DNA of 64,000 nucleotides from Kaistia soli DSM 19436 (GTDB taxonomy: Bacteria; Pseudomonadota; Alphaproteobacteria; Rhizobiales; Kaistiaceae). A program made the position numbers and the translations under genes. The stretch's first letter is position 1. Each line of letters opens with the position of its first letter. Location of the stretch: contig NZ_FQUP01000001.1 in the NCBI RefSeq assembly GCF_900129325.1, forward strand, positions 744,001 to 808,000. Direction: 5' to 3'. The notes under the pieces were generated by a model. That model worked only from the letters and a program-made list of their open reading frames with translations. It ran no database searches and was not told the DNA's origin. Below are positions 25,189 to 36,536 of this stretch, in pieces.

Positions 25189-25998
25189 TCAGCGCCGCGC
25201 GACAGCCACGACGAGATAGCCATAGCCCCAGTCGACCGGCAGCATGCCCGAGAGACGATCATCGATCCAGCCGACGAACGGATGATGCGTCACGGCATAT
25301 TCCGGCAACAGGCTCTCGCTAGTCATGTGCTCGATGGCAAATCCGGCTTCGGCCAGTTCCGCGACGATCTCATCGCGGCGATAGAGATGATAGAAGAGCG
25401 CGATCTTGTCCTTGCCGGCATCCCGGACATAGCGGATGTCGCCAGCTTCGAGACCCGCTCGGGCACTGGCATCCGCCTGAGCTTCCCTGAAGCGTCGCTT
25501 CGCATTCGGGAGGCCCAGGATAAGCCTGCCATCCGGCGCAAGATTACGACGCAGTTCCTTCAGGAGGGCGAGGCGGTTGGCACGGCCCGCGACATGGCCG
25601 AGCACGCCAAAGCCGAGTAGTGCCACGTCGAACCGGCCCGTCTCGTCGACCAGACGTCGATAGTCGATCCCGCTCGCATCGACGACGGAGATGTGGCTGG
25701 CCAGCCCCGCTGTCGCCACGGCCGCCGTCAGGTGCTCGCGGGCGACCGGACTGATATCAACGGCCACGATCTCTGCATTTCGTTCGCGCGCCAGCGCCAG
25801 GCAGTATCGCCCCTCACCGGCGCCATAGTCGAGCAGCCGCCCGCCGACTGGCAGCGCCCGGCGCAGAAATCGCATCGTGCGGGGATTCGGGCGCGGATAG
25901 CGGCTTTGATACAGGCCGGACGAGAAATAGGCGTCGTAGCTCTCCGCCATGTCGGGGAGCGGCGGCGCCCCGTCAGGCGGGAAAGCGGTCACGAGCAT
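25189..25998 (-). CDS. Class I SAM-dependent methyltransferase
   Basis: This 269-residue protein has the SAM-binding motif I RLLDYGAGEGRYCLALA (about residues 54-70), an acidic end of beta 2 (IVAVDIS), and the motif IV region FDVALLGFGVLGHV. The rest is a typical Rossmann methyltransferase of the methyltransf_11/25 kind. The substrate cannot be told from sequence. It is encoded 33 bases upstream of the SDR gene on the same strand and may be co-transcribed with it. It has no obvious link to the neighbouring permease gene. Confidence 0.85.
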   Translation of the reverse strand: MLVTAFPPDGAPPLPDMAESYDAYFSSGLYQSRYPRPNPRTMRFLRRALPVGGRLLDYGAGEGRYCLALARERNAEIVAVDISPVAREHLTAAVATAGLASHISVVDASGIDYRRLVDETGRFDVALLGFGVLGHVAGRANRLALLKELRRNLAPDGRLILGLPNAKRRFREAQADASARAGLEAGDIRYVRDAGKDKIALFYHLYRRDEIVAELAEAGFAIEHMTSESLLPEYAVTHHPFVGWIDDRLSGMLPVDWGYGYLVVAVARR

Positions 25999-26039: not shown

Positions 26040-27797
26040 TCAGTGTTCGAAATGAAGCCTGAGGATCGACGTTCCCGGCTCGGGTCCCGGTCGGCTCGAC
26101 AGGCGATCGGCGAGCCGGCGCAGCAGCGTCCCGGAGATGCTCGACATCGCCGCGTCGATCGCCGAATCGTCGTCGCCGTCGAGCAGACTTTCAAGATCAG
26201 CCACTGCGACGTCGCCAACCGGCATCGGCGCGCCGGTGTGGACGAGTTCGATATCGAGGTTGAGTTCGTCGAAACTGCCGCCGACCCCCGTGACGCGGCG
26301 GTCGCCGCCGGCATGGTCGATCGCCTCTGCCGCCTCGACGGCCGCCAGCGCCGCGCGCCGCACCACGTCACGTCGCGCAGCCCAGGCGCCGCCTGCCTCT
26401 TCGATGAAGTCGGTAATCTGGATCGGCACCGGGGGACCGTCGGCGGCGAGCTTGACGCTGATCTGACGGCGGATGCCGAGCCGGAAGATGAGATTGAGGA
26501 GGATCGCGATGACGCCGGTCACGATAAAGCCGGAGCCGACGAGATGGCGCAGCGCCGGGTGCGCCCGCTCCGCAAGACCCGGCATCAGCAACACGGTAAC
26601 ACCGCCGAGTAGCGACAGGCCGACGACGAAGATGCCGCGCGTATCGAGCTCGCGCGAGGCGATCAGATCAATACCGGCCGCCATCAGGAACGCTGCGGCA
26701 TAGAGTTCGATGGCGCCGATCACCGGCGTCGGGATCAGCGTCAGCGCCAGCGTCACCTGCGGCAGGAACGCGACGGCCAGAAGCAGCACCGCCGTTGCTA
26801 GACCGACGACACGGCTGGTCACGGCACTGGCGTGCGCAAGGCCGATATTGGCCGACGATGTCGCTGTCGGCATGGCACCGATCAGCCCGCCGACGAGGTC
26901 GGTGATACCCGCGGCCAGGACGCCGCGGCTCGCCTGCTTCATGTCCGGACGCCGCCAGTCCGCGTCGTCCATCTTGTCGAGCAGGATCAGGCTGCCGACC
27001 GTGTCGATCTGGGTCAAAATGGCGATGAAGGCAAGGCCGATGAGGACGCTGACCGGTATGTCGAACACCGGCGAGACCGGCATCGGCACCGAGACTGGCG
27101 GCGTGGAAAGCAGCATGGCGCCACCATCGAGCCGGCCCATGACGAAGGCCGCCAGGATGCCTCCGACAATGCCGATCAAGAGCGCCAGGAGCTTCAGCCG
27201 CCGGTTGCCCCATACCGAAAGGCCGACGATCAGCGACAGCGTGATCGACGACATGATCAGGCTGGGAATATCGATTTCGAAGTCGTGGCCGAGGCTCCAC
27301 GAGTGCTCGACCGCCTCGGCGACCAGCGACATGCCGCCAATGAGGACCACGAGGCCTGCGACGATCGGAGGAAACAGCCCACGAAGGCGCGGCAGAAGCG
27401 GCGCGATCGCCAGCGTCGCCAGCGCTGAGACGATGGTCATCGTCACCATGCCGCCCGGGCCCGTCTGGGCGATCACCGGCGCCGCAAGCGGGACCATGAA
27501 CACCGACGGCATATGGATCATCAGCGATCCCGAGCCGAAACGCCCGCCCCAGGACTGCAGCGCGGTGCCGATGGCCATTGCGATGATGGTGACGGCGAGA
27601 AGGTCGCGGGTCTGGTCGACCGTGAGGGCCGCCGTCCGCGCCAGTGCCAGCGTATAGGCAAGCAGCGCCAGCGCCATCACCGCATGCTGGAAGCCGAGCA
27701 TGACCGATGTGGCGAGCGGGGGGCGCTCGTCGGCAGAGAAAGAGAGCTCATGCGGGCGCCGACGCGGCCGCGACGGCGGCAATTTCAATGCAATCAT
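26040..27797 (-). CDS. NCS2 family nucleobase transporter with C-terminal ATPase-like domain
   Basis: This 585-residue inner-membrane protein carries an NCS2 (uracil/xanthine permease) domain of about a dozen hydrophobic segments at residues 30-445. Recognisable parts are SVMLGFQHAVMALALLAYT, the IDTVGSLILLDKM segment and GAMPTATSSANIGLAHASAVTSR. The last 140 residues are soluble and contain SFDELNLDIELVHTG and a terminal segment like those of degenerate GHKL/RsbW-type ATPase domains, without clear N, G1 or G2 boxes. The transporter probably imports a purine or pyrimidine by cation symport. The gene is divergent from a STAS anti-sigma-antagonist gene 191 bases away, which makes a regulatory role for the ATPase-like tail possible. 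The domain call for the tail is tentative. Confidence 0.8.
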   Translation of the reverse strand: MIALKLPPSRPRRRPHELSFSADERPPLATSVMLGFQHAVMALALLAYTLALARTAALTVDQTRDLLAVTIIAMAIGTALQSWGGRFGSGSLMIHMPSVFMVPLAAPVIAQTGPGGMVTMTIVSALATLAIAPLLPRLRGLFPPIVAGLVVLIGGMSLVAEAVEHSWSLGHDFEIDIPSLIMSSITLSLIVGLSVWGNRRLKLLALLIGIVGGILAAFVMGRLDGGAMLLSTPPVSVPMPVSPVFDIPVSVLIGLAFIAILTQIDTVGSLILLDKMDDADWRRPDMKQASRGVLAAGITDLVGGLIGAMPTATSSANIGLAHASAVTSRVVGLATAVLLLAVAFLPQVTLALTLIPTPVIGAIELYAAAFLMAAGIDLIASRELDTRGIFVVGLSLLGGVTVLLMPGLAERAHPALRHLVGSGFIVTGVIAILLNLIFRLGIRRQISVKLAADGPPVPIQITDFIEEAGGAWAARRDVVRRAALAAVEAAEAIDHAGGDRRVTGVGGSFDELNLDIELVHTGAPMPVGDVAVADLESLLDGDDDSAIDAAMSSISGTLLRRLADRLSSRPGPEPGTSILRLHFEH

Positions 27798-27988: not shown

Positions 27989-28327
27989 ATGAACGTTACG
28001 TTCGAGAGCGTCGGCGCCGCCTCGGTCATCGACCTGCTCGGCCGCCTCGACAGCGCCAATGCGGCTGCGGTCGAAGCCGAGCTTCTTTCGCGCCTTTCGG
28101 AAGGCAGCGGTGGGGTCGTGATCGATTTCGCGCGGCTCGACTATATTTCAAGCGCCGGCCTCAGGATCGTCCTCGTCATCGCGAAGCGCATGAAGCAGGC
28201 CAGCCGCAAGCTCGTGCTCACCGGCTTCCAGCCCAACATCAAGGACGTCTTCGAAATCAGCGGCTTCCTCAATATCCTCGAGGTCGCGCCGAATCGCGCC
28301 GAAGCCGTGAAGCGGACCGAGGGCTGA
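27989..28327 (+). CDS. STAS domain protein (anti-sigma factor antagonist, RsbV/SpoIIAA-like)
   Basis: This 112-residue single-domain STAS protein is the type phosphorylated by RsbW-like kinases and dephosphorylated by SpoIIE-type phosphatases. The phosphorylation loop reads LDYISSAGLRIV, with Ser55 matching SpoIIAA Ser58. The start ATG 27989 follows GGAG; longer frames run into the promoter region. A SpoIIE phosphatase and an RsbW-like ATPase fused to a permease are encoded 0.5-3.6 kb away on the opposite strand, so all three parts of a partner switch are present. It is convergent with the GFA gene (3-base gap). No sigma factor gene lies in the window, so the output is unknown. Confidence 0.9.
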   Translation: MNVTFESVGAASVIDLLGRLDSANAAAVEAELLSRLSEGSGGVVIDFARLDYISSAGLRIVLVIAKRMKQASRKLVLTGFQPNIKDVFEISGFLNILEVAPNRAEAVKRTEG

Positions 28328-28330
28328 ACG

Positions 28331-28843
28331 TCAGGTTTCATCCCGGCCGGTGGGTGGCCAATCCGTCGTGTCATGGTCGGGGTGCTGCTGGTTGCTCGAC
28401 TTGATCCGCGGGAGATAGCCCATGGGATCGTGCGAATAGGTCGGCCGATCGCCCGGCAGCGCGACGAGCCCGGCGAACCAGTCGACGCGGCTTTCGATGC
28501 CATACTGGACGACCGGCGGGACGCGAGAGGGTTCGTCGAAGGACCCGGCCATTACGCCGATATCCGGGAATTCCGGATAGTCGAAGATCATCGGCGTGCC
28601 GCACGCGCTGCAGAAGCCGCGACGGGCGAGCGCCGAGCTTCGGAACCAGGAGATCGCGCCGCGCGTCACGCGAAAGTCCGACTTCTGTACCGGGCAGATC
28701 ACCGCGAACGGACCGCCGACCGCCTTCTGGCACATGCGGCAATGGCAGACATGTACATTGCTCGGCGGTGTGTCGCAGGCGAAGCGCACCGCGCCGCACT
28801 GGCACCCTCCGGTGAGGCGGCCCTTGCCAAGCTGATCGGCCAT
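28331..28843 (-). CDS. GFA family protein (CENP-V/GFA domain, zinc-binding)
   Basis: This 170-residue protein has the GFA zinc-binding fold. Cys motifs are visible at GGCQCGAVRF, CHCRMCQKA and GFCSACGTPM. The family is named for glutathione-dependent formaldehyde-activating enzyme, but most members have no proven activity. It is the last gene of the - strand partner-switching operon, 20 bases after the phosphatase gene. Either it takes part in that pathway or it is a passenger; sequence cannot decide. Confidence 0.85.
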   Translation of the reverse strand: MADQLGKGRLTGGCQCGAVRFACDTPPSNVHVCHCRMCQKAVGGPFAVICPVQKSDFRVTRGAISWFRSSALARRGFCSACGTPMIFDYPEFPDIGVMAGSFDEPSRVPPVVQYGIESRVDWFAGLVALPGDRPTYSHDPMGYLPRIKSSNQQHPDHDTTDWPPTGRDET

Positions 28844-28863
28844 GTCGGATCTCCTTGGCTTGA

Positions 28864-30786
28864 CTACGAGACGATCGCGTCGCCGGGCGGCCCGAGATAG
28901 CGCACGACGAGACAGGTAATGTCATCGGATTGCGGGGCGCCAGCGACGAAGGCTGCGACGGCGCCTGTAACGGCCGACAGCACCGCATCGACGGGCCGCA
29001 CGGCCGAATCACGCAGCGTGGCCTCGATGCGCGCTTCGCCGAATTCGCGCCCTGCGCCGTCCATCGCCTCCGAGATACCGTCGGTGTAGAGAAAAAGCGT
29101 ATCGCCTACGGCAAGATGAGCGATCTTGTCGCCATAGGGCATGGCGGGCATCACGCCGAGCGCCATGCCGCCGGTACCCGGCAGCTCGGCGACGCTGCCA
29201 TCGCCGCGACGGATGATCAGCGGCGGATTGTGGCCGCCATTGGCGTAGGCAAGTTCGCCCGTCTCGATGTCGAGGATGGCGTAGAAGGCCGTGACGAACA
29301 TTTCCATCGGGTTGCGGGCGCAGAGCACTTCATTGGCGCGCACGAGGCAATCGCCCGGCGTGCCGCCATCGAGGGCGCTCGCCTGCAGAACCGTGCGCGA
29401 GATCGCCATGAAGAAGGCCGCCGGCACCCCCTTGCCGGAAACGTCAGCGATGACGAGACCAAGACGGCGCTCGTCGAGCGGAAAGAAGTCATAGAAGTCG
29501 CCGCCCATCTCGCGGGCGGGCACCATCGAAGCCTTGCCGGCATAGGCCGGATTGACCGGCAGTGATTCGGGCAGCATCGCCGCCTGGAGCGATTTGGCAG
29601 CCTGTAGTTCTGCCTCGACGCGGCGCGCCGACTCCTCGAGCAGCGCATTCTTCTGCTCCAGTTCCAGCGTCCGCGCCCTCACCTCCGCTTCCAGATCCTC
29701 CTCGCGCCGTTGCACCTTCACGGCCATGTCCTGAAAGACGCGGGCCAGCGTGCCGATCTCGTCGCGTCGACCGGTCAGAGGGTCAAGACTTTCGGGGTGG
29801 AAACTGCGCCCCTCGATCTCGCGCGCTGCCGTCGTCATCGCGAGCACCGGGCGGGCGATGCGCCGCGCCGACACCGACGCGATGGTGGCGCCGGCTGCAA
29901 AGACGAGCGCGGCCGAACCGACGCCGTAGACGAGAAGGTTGGAAAGCAGCTGATTGAGCTGCTGGTTCGACATCTGGATCATCACCGCGCCGATGACGAT
30001 GCCCGCCTGATCGCGGATCGGTGCCGATACCCAGAGATGGCGCTCCCTGATCTCGGAAGTCGCCTCGCCGGTCGAGATGGTCTCGGTGGGCAAGCCGACC
30101 AAATCCTTCGGGGTCTTCTCGGCGCCAACCTGTGCCAGCGACTTCTGCTGGTCGTCGAGCACTTCGATCGAAATGATATCGTTGCGGTTTAGCATCGCCT
30201 CCATGAGGACCGGGACTGAATTCGCAGCCCTCACCGCATCGAGCGCGCGGACGGACTGACCGACGATCAGGGCCCGCCCTGGTCCGGCCCGAACGCCGAC
30301 ATAGCGGACGCCGTCGACGGCGGGGCCGAAGTCGACGCTGTATCGGCGCCCCGAGACGAGACCGCGCAGCGCATCGCGCGACAGCGTTTCTGGAAGGGTC
30401 TGGCCGTTGATCACCGAGCCATAATCGCCGACGGAACTGGCGAGAATGCGCAGATCGCTGTCGATCAGCCAGATTGAATCGAGATTGCCGCGCGCCACGA
30501 TCTCGGCGAAGCGGTCGCTGACACCAGGCGTCGCGACCTGCTCGACATGGTTTGCCGTCAGCGCCAGCGTCGTCAAGACATCGGTGACGACCTCCTGTGC
30601 CTCCTCCAGCGACACCTCGGAAAGACGCGCGCTCTCGGCGATGATACGCGCGACGACCTGCGCCTGGCCTTCGGCCTGCGCGATCAGCGCATTGCGGCCG
30701 AGCATGCCGAACACGAGTGAAACGACCAGGATGGCGAAGGCGATACAGCTCGCGACGAGAATGATGAGACGACGGGTCAGCGTCAC
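28864..30786 (-). CDS. Membrane SpoIIE/RsbU-type PP2C phosphatase with periplasmic sensor and HAMP
   Basis: This 640-residue sensor phosphatase has a membrane segment at 7-29, a large periplasmic sensor domain (about 30-282), a second membrane segment (283-305), HAMP (306-360), a coiled-coil linker (355-400) and a SpoIIE-type PP2C domain (425-630). Metal-binding Asp residues are intact: Asp430 and Asp433 (GGDFYD), Asp448 (ADVSGKG), Asp569 (YTDGIS) and Asp621/622 (SDDIT). It should therefore be an active Ser phosphatase for a STAS protein. Its ATG overlaps the stop of the permease-RsbW fusion by 4 bases. The context suggests it dephosphorylates the STAS protein encoded at 27989 when its periplasmic domain senses a signal. 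Confidence 0.9.
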   Translation of the reverse strand: MTLTRRLIILVASCIAFAILVVSLVFGMLGRNALIAQAEGQAQVVARIIAESARLSEVSLEEAQEVVTDVLTTLALTANHVEQVATPGVSDRFAEIVARGNLDSIWLIDSDLRILASSVGDYGSVINGQTLPETLSRDALRGLVSGRRYSVDFGPAVDGVRYVGVRAGPGRALIVGQSVRALDAVRAANSVPVLMEAMLNRNDIISIEVLDDQQKSLAQVGAEKTPKDLVGLPTETISTGEATSEIRERHLWVSAPIRDQAGIVIGAVMIQMSNQQLNQLLSNLLVYGVGSAALVFAAGATIASVSARRIARPVLAMTTAAREIEGRSFHPESLDPLTGRRDEIGTLARVFQDMAVKVQRREEDLEAEVRARTLELEQKNALLEESARRVEAELQAAKSLQAAMLPESLPVNPAYAGKASMVPAREMGGDFYDFFPLDERRLGLVIADVSGKGVPAAFFMAISRTVLQASALDGGTPGDCLVRANEVLCARNPMEMFVTAFYAILDIETGELAYANGGHNPPLIIRRGDGSVAELPGTGGMALGVMPAMPYGDKIAHLAVGDTLFLYTDGISEAMDGAGREFGEARIEATLRDSAVRPVDAVLSAVTGAVAAFVAGAPQSDDITCLVVRYLGPPGDAIVS

Positions 30787-31937
30787 GGCACGATTCCGCC
30801 GCCGGCTGCGCCGCTGCGCATCATGACGAGCCGCAGCAGGTTGCGATCGCCCTGGCGGCGGTAGTAAGCGCGGTCGATCATATTGCTGATAAGATGAACG
30901 CCGAGGCCCCCGATGGGGCGGGTCTCGAGCGGGGCATCGAGATCGGGTTCCGGCGCGTCACGGAACGGATCGAAGGCGTCGCCGCCATAGCCAAGCTCGA
31001 CCGTTACGTCGTCGGGTCGCCGATAGATCACGACCGCAAGGCGTCCGCCTTCGGCCCCGCCATATTTGACGACATTGGTCACCAGTTCCTCGACGGCAAG
31101 CGACAGGCGGAACACGGCGGCCGAATCGAGCACGCCTTCGCCCGCCTCCTCGACCCCCGACTGGATCGTCGCGATCGAATCGTTCGAGACTGGCAGGTCG
31201 AAGGTGAGATCAAGCACGGATTGGCCGCTCACGAATACGTCTCCCTCAGGCAGGGCCTGCAAGCTCTCCTCGGCAAGCGCGCTCCGCTCGCCAATGTCGA
31301 CCCGCGCTCCGGTTGCGGTGCCGGCTCTTTGTCCGAGCCGCAGCTTGGCATAGGCCATGAGCCGGGCCAACGGCCAGCACAGCACCAGAAACCACAGCAT
31401 CGTATAAAGATAGATCCAGAGGATCGCGCGGGGATCGCCAACAGCGGCGATAACGGTGTTGGCGCGCTGAACGATCTCCGGCACGCCGATCACCGAGGCG
31501 GTGGACGAGGCCATGACGATGATCAGTAGATAGGTCGTCCAGGCGGGAATGAAGTACAGCGCCTCGACCTTCTCGCCGCGTTCCAGATGGCGAAGCGCCG
31601 CGAGCGCATTGTCGGAGACGAAGCCCGTCACCGCCACGGCAAGGGCGAGCGAAGCCTTGAGCCAATCCGGTAGCGGCAGCGAAAAGGCGCCAAGCGGAAT
31701 TTCCGGGGGCACGACATAGGCGAGGTAGTAGATCAGCACGAAGGTCGGCGGCACGCGCGCTGCTGCGGTCAAAAAGCCGGCAACCCGCGAGCCGCGCTGG
31801 CGCCCGCGCGCCAGCAGAAAGCCGAGTGGCGTCCCGATCGCCATGGTCAAGAGGGATATGCCGATATTGATCAGGAAGCCGACGCCGAGATAGGGCGTCC
31901 AGGCCAGCAGCATCGGCAGGATGTCGCGGGCGCTCAT
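30783..31937 (-). CDS. ABC permease domain fused to RsbW-like GHKL ATPase/kinase domain
   Basis: This 384-residue fusion has an amino-acid-type ABC permease domain at about residues 1-200, with membrane segments from GVGFLINIGISLLTMAIGTPLGFLLA onward and the ASSTASVIGVPEIV motif. A RsbW-like HATPase domain occupies about 235-375. The N-box is intact (EELVTNVVKYGG, Asn288) and so is the G2 glycine loop (GGLGVHLI, residues 343-350). In the G1 box the usual Asp of DxG aligns with Tyr317 (GYGGDAFDP), so ATP binding may be altered. The permease EAA loop (VEALYFIPAWTTY) lacks the conserved Gly. It overlaps its neighbours by 4 bases on both sides. It may couple ligand binding outside the cell to phosphorylation of a STAS protein inside. 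Confidence 0.85.
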   Translation of the reverse strand: MSARDILPMLLAWTPYLGVGFLINIGISLLTMAIGTPLGFLLARGRQRGSRVAGFLTAAARVPPTFVLIYYLAYVVPPEIPLGAFSLPLPDWLKASLALAVAVTGFVSDNALAALRHLERGEKVEALYFIPAWTTYLLIIVMASSTASVIGVPEIVQRANTVIAAVGDPRAILWIYLYTMLWFLVLCWPLARLMAYAKLRLGQRAGTATGARVDIGERSALAEESLQALPEGDVFVSGQSVLDLTFDLPVSNDSIATIQSGVEEAGEGVLDSAAVFRLSLAVEELVTNVVKYGGAEGGRLAVVIYRRPDDVTVELGYGGDAFDPFRDAPEPDLDAPLETRPIGGLGVHLISNMIDRAYYRRQGDRNLLRLVMMRSGAAGGGIVP

Positions 31938-33523
31938 TTTGCAAGCACCCGCCGCTCGAACAACGTGAAGAAATGCGCAACGGCGAGCACGATGACCACA
32001 TAGACGACGAGCAGAATGTTCATCATCACCGGACCGTTGCCATAATCAGCGGCGATCGCCGTGCTGGCATGGACTAATTCCGGCACAGCGATGGCGCTTG
32101 CCATGGCGGTCGCTTTCACGACATTGATCGAACTGCCCATGATCGCGGGATGCGCCAAGCGCAGCGCCCGCTTCAGCCTGTGTTGCGGCGCGGTGCCAAT
32201 GGTCGCTGCTGCCTCCGCGAGCGCCGCGGCATTGGCGGCCCCGGCATAGAAGGACAGCACGGCGACGGCGCACCAGAAGGCCGAGAGCGTCAGCCCGTGG
32301 ACCGCGACAAGCCCGCCGATGCCGAAAAAGACCAGATAGAGCTGCAGCAGCGGCGGCGTCATGCGCATCAGCGTCAGCAGCAGATGAATGAGCGGCGTCA
32401 GCAGCGGAACGCGCCGGCGCAGCACAAACGCACCGCCAAGGCCGATGCCGATGCTGCCGACAAGCACCGCGACCGCCAGTGCGAGGGTTACCTGCAACCC
32501 CTCGATCAGGCCGGCGCGGTGATAGCGATCATAGAACGGCGTCACGTCGATGCCGAAACGATCGCGCAGCATCAGCGTGAAGCCGGCAAGGCCGACCACT
32601 TCCTGGGCCTCGATCAGATCGAGCTCGCGGCAAGCCAGCGTCCAGCTGCCGTCCTCCTGGCGTCGGCAGGTGAACCGCCCGTCGGGATCGCGCGCTGTCC
32701 AGAGTTTGCCTGCATCGCGGAGATAGACAGACGGCGGCAGCTTCCACTTGGCCTCGAGAGCCGCAAGGCTTCCATCCCGCAGCCATGACGCAATCGTCTC
32801 GTCCATCTCGGTTGCGAGGCGGCCGTCGCTCGCGACGGCTACCGCCCAAGGTGATACGAAATCGGGAGGCAACAGTCGAAAGCCCGGCCAATCTCCGCTG
32901 GCAATCTGCCGTTGCAGCGCCGCCTCGTCATAGAGCCAGCCATCGCAAGCGCCATCACGGAGCGCGAGTTCGGCATCGCGAATGCTGCCAAAGGCTTCGA
33001 TGCGAGCATTCAGCCGCGTCGCGATCAGGCGATTCCACAGCGCGCCCTGCACGGCGCAGAGGTCGCGATTGCGAAGATCGGTCCAGGTCCGGATAGGGCT
33101 CTGCTCGGGCAGCAGCACGCTGGCGCCGCCGCCATAATAGCCTGGCTCGATCATGCGCACGAGGCGGCGGCGATCGACGGTATCGCCGAGGGTCGCGACG
33201 ACCGCATCGATTTCGCCGGCGACGAGCTTTTGAAGACGGTTGGCGCTGGTCACCGGAACGAGAACGAGCTTGACGCCAAGCGATTCTGCCAGCCCCTCGG
33301 CAACGTCGACGTCATAGCCGACGGTCTCACCAGCGGCGTTGCGAAAGCCGAACGGCTCGTAGTCCGTCTTGACGCCGACGATGAGGCTGCCGCGCGCCTT
33401 GATCTCGTCGAGCCGGTCGGCATGCGCCGCCAGGGTGAAGCCGGCGAGCAGCATCACGGCAAGGAAGAGCCTGAAAAGGAACACCGGCGGCTTCGCTTCC
33501 CGCACGACAGCACGCTCCGCCAT
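31934..33523 (-). CDS. Amino-acid-type solute-binding domain fused to ABC permease domain
   Basis: This 529-residue fusion has a signal or anchor segment at about 13-33, then a polar-amino-acid-binding (SBP_bac_3) domain from about 36 to 280 (GSLIVGVKTDYEPFGF, LVAGEIDAVVATLGDT, CAVQGALW). A linker with two Cys pairs follows, then an ABC permease domain from about 345 to the end (GLIEGLQVTLALAVAVLVGSIG, EAA-type loop EAAATIGTAPQHRLKRAL). GGAAGG before ATG 33523 sets the start. Its stop overlaps the permease-RsbW fusion by 4 bases. No ABC ATPase gene accompanies the pair. Binding-protein/permease fusions exist in true importers, but here the partner carries a kinase-like domain, which suggests sensing rather than transport. 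Confidence 0.85.
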   Translation of the reverse strand: MAERAVVREAKPPVFLFRLFLAVMLLAGFTLAAHADRLDEIKARGSLIVGVKTDYEPFGFRNAAGETVGYDVDVAEGLAESLGVKLVLVPVTSANRLQKLVAGEIDAVVATLGDTVDRRRLVRMIEPGYYGGGASVLLPEQSPIRTWTDLRNRDLCAVQGALWNRLIATRLNARIEAFGSIRDAELALRDGACDGWLYDEAALQRQIASGDWPGFRLLPPDFVSPWAVAVASDGRLATEMDETIASWLRDGSLAALEAKWKLPPSVYLRDAGKLWTARDPDGRFTCRRQEDGSWTLACRELDLIEAQEVVGLAGFTLMLRDRFGIDVTPFYDRYHRAGLIEGLQVTLALAVAVLVGSIGIGLGGAFVLRRRVPLLTPLIHLLLTLMRMTPPLLQLYLVFFGIGGLVAVHGLTLSAFWCAVAVLSFYAGAANAAALAEAAATIGTAPQHRLKRALRLAHPAIMGSSINVVKATAMASAIAVPELVHASTAIAADYGNGPVMMNILLVVYVVIVLAVAHFFTLFERRVLAK

Positions 33524-33625
33524 TGACCTTCCGCCCTTCCCCACGCACCGTCTGATTGTCGGCAGCGACGATAAACGCTATCCCGTCACCAAAGCCTTCT
33601 CCAGAGCGACAGGGAGCATTGCGGC

Positions 33626-34507
33626 GTGTCATCGAAGCAATCGACGATCGCGTGGGCCCTTGCGCTGATGATGAGCCTTGGCGGCCTCGCCCCGGCAAGC
33701 GGCGGAACGCTCGATCGCATCGCAGAAACCGGCGTCATCCGGGCCGGAACCCGAACCGATGCCATTCCATTCGCCTTCGACGATGGCGGCGGCAAGCCGG
33801 TCGGCTTCTCTGTCGACCTTATCGAAGAAATCCGCGCCGCAGCAGAGAAGACGCTCGGCAAGCCGATCAAGGTCGATCTTCAGGTGGTGACGCCGGCCAA
33901 CCGCGTTCAACTGGTCGCCGACGGCAAGCTCGATCTCGTCTGCGAGATCACGACGCCGACCTGGGCGCGCGAAAAGCAGGTCGACTTCTCGATCCCGATC
34001 TTCCGCGACGGCACCCGCATCCTGACCTTTCGCGACACGCTGCGCACGGTCCCCAACCCGAAGGACATGCTGGTCGGCGTCGCGGAGGGAACGACGACGG
34101 CAACGATCCTCGAGGACGCGCTGCCGGGCGTCCGCATCAAGAATTTCCCGTCGATGGACGCCGCTTTCATCGCGCTCGGCAAGGGCGAGGTCCAGGGCGT
34201 CGCCAATATCGGCGTCGTGCTGCTTGGTCTATCCCGCAAGTTTGAGCCCAACCGCAGCGTCGTCCTGCTGCCGCGCTCGGCGCCCTATGGCAACGAGACG
34301 ATGTCGTGCATCCTTCCGCAGGACGACAGCGCCTGGCGTGACTTCGTCAATCACACCATCATCAATCTCGAAGATGGCCTCTCCGACTATCGCGGCCGCT
34401 ATATGGATATCCATGACAAGTGGTTCGGCCGCGACGGCGTGATGGTCTATCCGCTCGATCGTTCGACGCGCGATTATCTGCTGCAGTCCGACATCTGGGC
34501 GCGCTGA
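33626..34507 (+). CDS. Amino acid ABC transporter substrate-binding protein (SBP_bac_3)
   Basis: This 293-residue periplasmic binding protein has a signal peptide (AWALALMMSLGGLAPASG) and a polar-amino-acid-binding fold (TGVIRAGTRTDAIPFAF, LVADGKLDLVCEITTPTW). The arginine-type motif that contacts the ligand carboxylate corresponds to the CEITTPTWAREKQ region. Translation starts at GTG 33626 after AGGGAG. It is divergent from the sensor-like fusion operon across 102 bases and is followed 3 bases later by a kinase-like gene. It is probably the free ligand-binding protein for the membrane fusion proteins, or for an importer encoded elsewhere. Confidence 0.85.
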   Translation: MSSKQSTIAWALALMMSLGGLAPASGGTLDRIAETGVIRAGTRTDAIPFAFDDGGGKPVGFSVDLIEEIRAAAEKTLGKPIKVDLQVVTPANRVQLVADGKLDLVCEITTPTWAREKQVDFSIPIFRDGTRILTFRDTLRTVPNPKDMLVGVAEGTTTATILEDALPGVRIKNFPSMDAAFIALGKGEVQGVANIGVVLLGLSRKFEPNRSVVLLPRSAPYGNETMSCILPQDDSAWRDFVNHTIINLEDGLSDYRGRYMDIHDKWFGRDGVMVYPLDRSTRDYLLQSDIWAR

Positions 34508-35399: not shown

Positions 35400-36536
35400 C
35401 TAAGCCGCCGACGCCCGGCTGCCGACCGCGCCATAGTCCTCGCGCCATGAGCGCAGCGGCGCGAGCGCCGTGCCGTCCGTATCAAAGACATGGACATAGC
35501 CCGGTGCCGCGTCATAGCCGACGAAGGCGCCCTCGGCGATGTCGTGGATGCCGCGAAGCGAAGCGATCACCCGTTCACCGGATGGCAAAGCCGAGAACAG
35601 GATTGTCTCGGCGCCGAGAAGTTCACGGGCCGTCAGCCGGCATTTGAGCGGACCGTCGGCGGCATGGATCAGATGCTCCGGCCGCACCCCTACCGTGACA
35701 GTCTTGCCGACCAAATCTCCGCTGCCGGACACCGCTGCACGCAGCGTCGCGCGTCCCTCGTCGACGCTGAGGCGCAGGCCGTGCTCGGTGACGGACTCAA
35801 CCTGCGCCACGAGAAAGTTCATCTGCGGCGCGCCGAGGAAGCCGGCGACGAAGCGATTTCGTGGCCGGGCATAGAGTTCGATCGGCGCTCCCGTCTGCTC
35901 GACGATCCCATCGCGCAGCACGACGATCCGGTCGGCCATGGTCATCGCCTCGACCTGATCATGCGTGACATAGACCATGGTCGATTTCAGACGCCGGTGC
36001 AGGGCGACGATCTCGCTGCGCATCTTGACCCGCAATTCGGCATCGAGATTGGAGAGCGGCTCGTCGAACAGGAACGCCTGCGGTTCCTTGACGATGGCCC
36101 GGCCGATGGCGACGCGCTGGCTCTGGCCGCCCGAAAGCTGCGAGGGGCGGCGCTGCAGCAGATGACCGATCTGCAGGATCTCGGCCGCCTCGTTGATGCG
36201 GCGTTCGATCTCCGCCTTCGGCGTCTTCTGGTTGACGAGCCCGAAGCGGAGATTCTCATAGACGCTCATATGCGGATAGAGCGCATAGGACTGGAACACC
36301 ATGGCCATGCCGCGCGCCGATGGCAGGAGATGATCGCACCGCCGGCCGGCGAGATGCACCTCGCCCGACGTGACCTCCTCAAGCCCAGCAATCATGCGCA
36401 GCAGCGTCGACTTTCCGCAGCCGGACGGGCCGACGAAGACCGTGAAGGACTCATCCTCGACCGCGAGATCGATGCCGTGGATCACTTCGACGGATTGATA
36501 GCTCTTGCGGACCGATTTGAGTTCGAGCCTTGCCAT
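35400..36536 (-). CDS. Sugar ABC transporter ATP-binding protein (UgpC/MsmK type)
   Basis: This 378-residue cytoplasmic ATPase has Walker [10 protein letters not shown] (36-44), Q-loop [14 protein letters not shown], signature [19 protein letters not shown], Walker [12 protein letters not shown] and [11 protein letters not shown]-terminal TOBE domain contains VGVRPEHLIHA. It is the last gene of the beta-glucoside operon and powers the two permeases upstream. As an MsmK-like ATPase it could also serve the 4-7 kb importer that has none. The start at 36536 is preferred; a longer frame overlaps the GH116 gene. Confidence 0.92.
   Translation of the reverse strand: MARLELKSVRKSYQSVEVIHGIDLAVEDESFTVFVGPSGCGKSTLLRMIAGLEEVTSGEVHLAGRRCDHLLPSARGMAMVFQSYALYPHMSVYENLRFGLVNQKTPKAEIERRINEAAEILQIGHLLQRRPSQLSGGQSQRVAIGRAIVKEPQAFLFDEPLSNLDAELRVKMRSEIVALHRRLKSTMVYVTHDQVEAMTMADRIVVLRDGIVEQTGAPIELYARPRNRFVAGFLGAPQMNFLVAQVESVTEHGLRLSVDEGRATLRAAVSGSGDLVGKTVTVGVRPEHLIHAADGPLKCRLTARELLGAETILFSALPSGERVIASLRGIHDIAEGAFVGYDAAPGYVHVFDTDGTALAPLRSWREDYGAVGSRASAA

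Follow-up and report, generated by a model that had tools for sequence, protein, structure and literature searches.

Organization of the locus

We analysed a 64,000-nucleotide stretch of the Kaistia soli DSM 19436 genome (contig NZ_FQUP01000001.1, positions 744,001 to 808,000; hereafter the window) in which parts of an ATP-binding cassette (ABC) importer are encoded together with parts of a partner-switching signalling system. The cluster is on the minus strand in the order permease A, permease B/ATPase, SpoIIE, and GFA. Permease A (31934–33523) is a fusion of a solute-binding protein (SBP) domain (Pfam SBP_bac_3, 91 bits) with a permease of the polar amino acid type (PAAT), and its EAA loop is shortened. 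The next gene (30783–31937) encodes a second fusion, with permease B at approximately residues 1–205, also with a shortened EAA loop, and an RsbW/SpoIIAB-like GHKL ATPase domain at approximately residues 245–375 (HATPase_c_2, 54 bits with a cut-off of 27.4). This is followed by a gene for a membrane SpoIIE/PP2C phosphatase with a HAMP domain (28864–30786; Pfam SpoIIE 169 bits, HAMP 33 bits). An initial annotation, made from the sequence alone, had placed these genes and that of a GFA-family protein in one operon, and all of them were found at their places with Pfam or NCBIfam matches. The four-base overlaps were described there as ATGA-type, which is correct for the junction of permeases A and B; at the junction of permease B and SpoIIE the overlap reads GTGA.

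Two further genes of the system flank this operon. A single-domain STAS protein resembling RsbV and SpoIIAA (27989–28327; Pfam STAS 63 bits; TIGR00377 66.7 bits, cut-off 53.45) is encoded at the 3' end of the operon, as had been noted, but it is on the plus strand, convergent with GFA, and hence is not an operon member. A free amino-acid-type solute-binding protein (33626–34507, plus strand; Pfam SBP_bac_3 79.7 bits) is divergent from permease A, in agreement with the initial annotation, and its homologues adjoin the cluster in relatives. The fused SBP domain of permease A keeps the Arg and Asp columns that we take to be amino-acid ligand contacts; the free protein keeps the Arg column and has Ile in the Asp column. 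The permease halves of both fusions were not reported by the Pfam scan. With the NCBIfam model HEQRo_perm_3TM, permease A scored 43.5 bits (cut-off 42.2) and permease B scored 20.8 bits, which is under the cut-off, but permease B is clearly alignable with ordinary PAAT permeases.

Distribution among genomes

Importer permeases beside a SpoIIE gene were found at 17 loci, each in its own genome and all from one class. These are the window and five other members of its genus (G007, G013, G005, G004, and G003) together with G229, G797, G798, G037, G208, G321, G349, G195, G296, G784, and G378. The shared proteins are approximately 35–45% identical in the most distant of these genomes. Of 14 genomes of the window genus, 6 have the full permease B/ATPase fusion. 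In larger samples, matches at E ≤ 1e-20 occurred in 16 of 385 genomes of the class, with nine limited to the ATPase domain, and matches at E ≤ 1e-25 in 6 of 397 genomes of the order, five of them from the window genus; these counts are lower bounds with few candidates scored per genome, and G378 is in the class sample yet not among its matches. Searches within families gave 4 of 4 genomes around G296, 1 of 16 around G321, and 3 of 7 around G229.

The expected co-occurrence of the permeases with HATPase, SpoIIE, and STAS genes was observed. SpoIIE lies beside the permeases at all 17 loci and STAS is present at 15 (not G229 or G208). The HATPase domain is fused to permease B in nine clusters (the six of the window genus, G229, G797, and G798) and is encoded elsewhere in the locus in six others. 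In five of these (G037, G195, G296, G784, and G378) it is a separate, close neighbour gene and in G321 it and a second STAS gene are located approximately 9 kb upstream of permease B. The HATPase gene of G349 is on another small contig. In G784 and G378 the genes form single-strand operons that run, in order, STAS, SpoIIE, a methyltransferase, the binding protein, permease A, permease B, an ABC ATPase, and the RsbW-like ATPase. The same gene set is split over two strands in G195 and G296. The association of partner-switch parts with importer permeases is more than chance.

Docking loops and ABC ATPases

The EAA, or coupling, loop of an importer permease is the cytoplasmic element that docks the ABC ATPase. 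We compared this loop between fixed anchors across the clusters. In permease B it is 57 residues long in all 13 clusters without an ABC ATPase, versus 77 residues in 4 of 4 clusters that contain an ABC ATPase and in 6 of 6 ordinary PAAT permeases; the 20 absent residues fall in the EAA loop. A similar pattern was observed with permease A, where the loop has 55–64 residues in all 12 readable ATPase-less clusters, which is 9–18 fewer than the 73 residues seen in 4 of 4 ATPase-bearing clusters and 5 of 5 ordinary importers. In the window, permease B is 20 residues short and permease A is 16 residues short (57 versus 73). The comparison sets were six ordinary PAAT permeases for B and five for A, some of them in both, with four and three, respectively, from the window genome. 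G349 has no permease A because its contig ends there, and neither the permease A counts nor the permease B tree includes it.

In phylogenetic trees of both permeases, the ATPase-less rows formed one group (support 100/100 for A and for B) and the ATPase-bearing rows formed another (93/92 for B and 97/98 for A). Ordinary PAAT permeases were outside both groups, on long branches that the tree program flagged. These trees fit a single loss of the motor, after which the ATPase domain would have been joined on. The position of G037, which has separate genes but is placed near or within the group of fusions in the trees of the permeases and of SpoIIE, indicates that fusion or splitting occurred more than once or that genes moved between lineages, as judged from the trees.

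For the initial annotation, an ABC ATPase that pairs with these permeases would have spoken against its proposal. Four relatives (G195, G296, G784, and G378) do have a GlnQ-like ABC ATPase in the cluster; the window cluster does not. The best NCBIfam matches in G784, which is the one of the four ATPase-bearing loci scanned in this way, were GlnQ for the ABC ATPase and RsbW for the ATPase domain, both under the equivalog cut-offs. We read these relatives as the older state, in which a full importer would have had the switch attached to it. In the window cluster there is no PAAT-type ABC ATPase, and the ABC ATPases of the window are closer to other types. One of these (35400–36536) was tried as a partner and rejected; it is of the sugar type and lies with genes for a GH116 hydrolase and an SBP_bac_1 protein. 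In the whole window genome there are three PAAT ATPases at E ≤ 1e-50 among the 150 of 222 first-look candidates that were scored, with weaker matches not followed, and each of the three has its own PAAT-type permease genes next to it.

These results bear on whether the locus encodes an ordinary ABC amino-acid importer that obtains its ATPase from elsewhere and has its activity or expression controlled by the neighbouring partner switch. The four relatives with an in-cluster GlnQ-like ATPase and intact EAA loops speak for such an importer. By contrast, the loops are shortened in every ATPase-less cluster where they could be read, that of the window included, and the PAAT ATPases of the window genome have their own permeases. 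We consider this explanation very improbable. The window locus has the SBP domain and the paired permeases of a PAAT importer, but its EAA docking loops are shortened and no cognate ABC ATPase was found in the cluster or, at E ≤ 1e-50, in the genome. By these two features, its sequence is not that of an ABC importer. That the loops are shortened in the ATPase-less clusters and kept in the ATPase-bearing ones supports conversion of an importer to a receptor. We therefore favour the interpretation that the locus probably encodes a receptor that is derived from an ABC importer of the polar amino acid type and feeds a partner switch.

Partner-switch proteins

A profile built from 14 HATPase rows was compared with solved structures and matched RsbW (6m36) with E 1.9e-16 and SpoIIAB with E 2e-11 to 4e-11. 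The window domain is the best HATPase_c_2 match of its genome (57.1 bits, with the next at 34.2 bits), and it keeps the N-box (EELVTN) and the G2 box (GGLG). The Ser column of the STAS proteins is conserved across all 16 aligned rows, 10 of which are from the 17 loci. We assume from SpoIIAA and RsbV that this is the phosphorylated residue. In the SpoIIE proteins the motifs GDFYD, DVSGKG, TDG, and SDD, which presumably bind metal, are kept in 13 of 13 aligned rows, consistent with the initial description of the metal ligands as intact. Both the STAS and the SpoIIE row sets contain some proteins from other loci and do not cover all 17.

We calculated the ratio of nonsynonymous to synonymous substitutions (dN/dS) for the window against three members of its genus (G007, G013, and G004). 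With G007, the values were 0.03–0.19 for the cluster genes and 0.25 for GFA. The value for the ATPase domain was 0.042, which indicates that this domain is maintained.

Both the STAS and the RsbW-like proteins belong to the anti-sigma type, and this could be a conventional partner switch with a sigma factor as its output, for which the importer-derived receptor would be the input only. In one relative, G037, an ECF-type sigma factor (L040, 2621–3151) is encoded approximately 4 kb from the STAS gene. However, ECF factors usually have other anti-sigma partners, the gene was seen at this one locus, with the neighbours of the other 15 relatives outside the scan, and none of the ten flanking genes scanned in the window encodes a sigma factor. 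A sigma factor output seems doubtful to us. The only other SpoIIE match in the window genome is at G000:C7:270850-271443 (L051); genome-wide searches gave no STAS or HATPase_c_2 match within 20 kb around it.

Alternatives to a receptor

Several observations weigh against a receptor that signals through a working partner switch. The first concerns permeases from another class. In G929 (L137, 7654–10674), there are genes for a methyltransferase, permease A, and a loop-less permease B, and in G1033 (L138, 9206–11475) there are loop-less permeases A and B. The loops of permeases A and B are 57 and 63 residues long in both genomes. In the 20 kb examined at each locus, which is the extent of the search in these two genomes, there was no match to HATPase, SpoIIE, or STAS. 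These pairs indicate that loop loss is not tied to the switch, and that a facilitator or some other signalling output is possible. The earlier proposal that importer parts had been turned into a receptor is supported by the shortened loops in clusters without an ABC ATPase and weakened by these loop-less pairs without a switch. As a side observation, a VipA gene of a type VI secretion system is located approximately 6 kb from the permease pair of G1033.

From this it could be argued that the permease pair is an ATP-independent channel or facilitator that is gated or regulated by the switch and whose main function is still transport. In addition to the loop-less pairs, this would be consistent with the ligand columns kept in the fused SBP domain and with the methyltransferase, possibly a metabolic enzyme, that travels with the permeases. 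On the other hand, 9 of 17 clusters have the ATPase domain physically joined to permease B, an arrangement suggestive of signal transfer, and we know of no way in which a type I importer could cycle without its ATPases. We regard a facilitator as distinctly unlikely, and a receptor remains the interpretation that we prefer.

The second observation is in the ATPase domain. The Asp of the G1 box is replaced in all six fusions of the window genus, by Tyr in five, including the window, and by Phe in one; this residue is kept in 19 of 19 aligned HATPases from outside the genus. GHKL proteins that lose this residue are normally unable to bind nucleotide. This makes kinase activity in the window genus doubtful, and the domain there may be inactive as a kinase and possibly be a non-catalytic domain for docking STAS. 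The HATPase domain is also the least constrained piece when the window is compared with G004, with a dN/dS of 0.57 that is the highest of all comparisons. Of the three core parts of a partner switch that had been recognized initially, STAS, the PP2C phosphatase, and the N-box and G2 box of the GHKL domain stand, whereas the G1-box Asp is not kept. The locus thus looks like a working partner switch that, in the window genus, departs from the pattern at one defining residue.

A pseudokinase would account for this departure. The RsbW-like domain of the window genus would then only bind STAS, with phosphorylation carried out by another kinase or with binding alone acting as the switch. The restriction of the Tyr and Phe replacements to the six genus fusions, with none among the 19 other HATPases, and the retention of the N-box and G2 box argue for this idea. 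It is less easily reconciled with the intact STAS Ser and SpoIIE motifs of the same genomes, which fit continued phosphorylation, or with the rank of the window domain as the best HATPase_c_2 match of its genome. We hold a pseudokinase to be possible, with the balance tilted somewhat against it.

The remaining points concern occurrence and modelling. Within its genus the locus is present in only 6 of 14 genomes, HATPase and STAS genes were not seen in the 26 kb examined of G208, and a STAS gene was not seen in the 20 kb examined of G229. The partner ATPases considered in the window genome were those at E ≤ 1e-50. AlphaFold models made from three-row alignments (window, L003, and L004) had mean predicted local distance difference test (pLDDT) values of 41.9 for the permease B/ATPase fusion and 36.7 for the neighbouring NCS2 protein and were unusable. 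The locus is real, conserved, and unusual.

NCS2 permease and other neighbouring genes

The component list of the initial annotation omitted two neighbours that recur with the cluster. One is an NCS2-type (xanthine/uracil) permease with a C-terminal extension (26040–27797, minus strand; Pfam Xan_ur_permease 151 bits), which is beside STAS at 8 of 17 loci (the six of the window genus, G797, and G798). The other is an S-adenosylmethionine (SAM) methyltransferase (25189–25998, minus strand; Pfam Methyltransf_23 63 bits), present at 15 of 17 loci and, as described above, beside the permeases of G929; in G229 it adjoins an NCS2 gene on another contig. NCBIfam and Pfam assign no specific function to the methyltransferase.

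The extension of the NCS2 permease consists of its last ~135 residues (approximately residues 450–585). A 31-row profile of this extension, in which two rows repeat genes already included because loci overlap, aligned with the cluster HATPase profile over 128 columns (hhalign 96.3%, E 1.6e-9). The value was 96.7% with the 19 rows from outside the clusters alone, 94.7% when the genus rows were removed from the target, and 96.8% with 20 rows against 14. Controls with six unrelated profiles, a reversed profile, and five column shuffles gave 1.5% or less. Smaller row sets gave 0.2% (6 rows) and 46.6% (10 rows). Pfam names no C-terminal domain in any NCS2 protein scanned, most of the extensions, including that of the window, are under the inclusion threshold of the HATPase hidden Markov model, and when solved structures were searched with the extension profile, the only matches were a histidine kinase (E 0.11) and a second structure (E 0.76). 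From these profile comparisons, the extension is likely related to the RsbW-like GHKL domain and is probably degenerate. By the HATPase alignment, the window tail has Ile in the N-box Asn column and His in the G1 Asp column, and with these replacements it would be a non-catalytic docking domain.

The tail is a possible output partner of the STAS protein. If so, transporters would be at both ends of the switch, with the motorless importer as the receptor and with STAS binding the RsbW-like tail of the NCS2 permease to gate purine-type uptake without a sigma factor. We judge this arrangement to be unlikely. The NCS2 subgroup with the tail was found in 13 of 385 genomes of the class at E ≤ 1e-5 (loci L116-L134), and there was no STAS match within approximately 1.5 kb on each side of the other NCS2 genes of this subgroup, which indicates that the tail is not tied to STAS. 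In the SulP/SLC26 proteins, which have the same fold as NCS2, a STAS domain is fused to the transporter. The proposed role of the NCS2 tail would be the mirror image of this, with an RsbW-like tail and not a STAS domain on the transporter.

The GFA-family protein (28331–28843, minus strand; Pfam GFA 81 bits) is co-directional with the operon, and the initial annotation had listed it as the last gene of the operon. Only the window and G007, 2 of the 17 genomes, have it next to the cluster. We rejected it as a component on this basis and it is probably an unrelated neighbour. A promoter scan gave chance-level results (1 found versus 0.9 expected). Terminator-like sites (10 versus 4.7 expected) were scattered and mostly within genes.

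A possible signalling route

If the locus is a receptor, its parts suggest the following route. The fused and free binding proteins would deliver an amino-acid-like ligand, and the permease pair would change its conformation in response, as in an importer. This change would be relayed to the RsbW-like domain, which takes the place of the motor. The RsbW-like domain would bind the STAS protein and, in most lineages, phosphorylate it; in the window genus, the domain may serve for non-catalytic docking of STAS. The HAMP-SpoIIE protein would dephosphorylate STAS in response to a signal of its own, and free STAS would then act on the output. The neighbouring NCS2 permease, which ends in the probable RsbW-like tail, is a candidate for this output.

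Were this correct, the steps from a pump to a sensor would be readable from living relatives: a full importer with a switch (four genomes), then absence of the motor with shortened loops (13), and then fusion of the ATPase domain (9 of these 13). Partner switches would gain a defined transmembrane input, and how the conformational cycle of an importer signals would become testable. The NCS2 tail, if its proposed role holds, would add a direct transporter output.

Comparison with related loci and known systems

Our searches also encountered further RsbW-like/STAS pairs that sit with transporters, which we take as leads. In G024 (L041), an RsbW-like ATPase and STAS are with an Na/Pi cotransporter, a SpoIIE protein with a TorS-type sensor, and a Peripla_BP_6 protein. 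G026 (L042) is like G024 by its gene map, and in G016 (L045) the RsbW-like ATPase and STAS are beside a scanned Na/Pi cotransporter gene. STAS, HATPase, and SpoIIE genes of G043 (L044, 9384–19619) are near genes for a major facilitator superfamily (MFS) protein with a weak Cache-like match and an ABC_sub_bind protein. A similar arrangement of STAS and HATPase with an MFS transporter and ABC_sub_bind occurs in G031 (L043), where a single protein contains both the ATPase domain and a guanylate-cyclase-like domain. An ammonium transporter gene is followed by a STAS gene in G321 (L070/L104) and G245 (L073). The G321 ammonium transporter locus also contains GPP34, a second STAS, an RsbW-like ATPase, and a type III glutamine synthetase.

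In agreement with the initial annotation, which knew of no such system, the architecture described here was not found among the literature matches listed by a full-text search, with most subscription papers and all preprints outside its scope. As in RsbU-RsbV-RsbW and SpoIIE-SpoIIAA-SpoIIAB, the locus has a GHKL kinase-type domain, a phospho-Ser STAS antagonist, and a PP2C phosphatase. Unlike in these systems, the ATPase domain is either joined to a membrane pair of importer origin or encoded alongside it, there is no sigma factor among the flanking genes scanned, and the G1 Asp is lost in the window genus. PAAT importers such as GlnHPQ share the SBP_bac_3 domains, the HEQRo-type permease, and, in the ATPase-bearing relatives, a GlnQ-like ATPase. 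SBP-permease fusions such as GlnP are also known among them. The differences are the shortened EAA loops of the window type and the absence of an ABC ATPase from the cluster.

Importer parts are, to our knowledge, not part of the SiaABC system, which like this locus has the PP2C phosphatase of a partner switch. The best NCBIfam match of the window SpoIIE protein is SiaA (NF038263; E 3.2e-33, 115.2 bits), although the cut-off of 700 was not reached. In Pseudomonas aeruginosa, biofilm formation is reported to be controlled by SiaABC(D), a partner switch that includes a PP2C phosphatase (PMC7647112).

Two other systems join a transporter fold to signalling. CbrA of Pseudomonas putida is reported to combine an SLC5 transporter domain with a histidine kinase and both to signal and to transport L-histidine (PMC7096432). 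It resembles our locus in having a transporter domain fused to a signalling kinase and differs in that, by that account, an SLC5 domain is paired with a two-component histidine kinase and still transports. The 5TMR receptors have an S-component transporter fold, and one type is joined to a SpoIIE-type phosphatase domain (PMC11109136). Their fold is that of an S-component, whereas the locus in the window has a type I importer permease pair.

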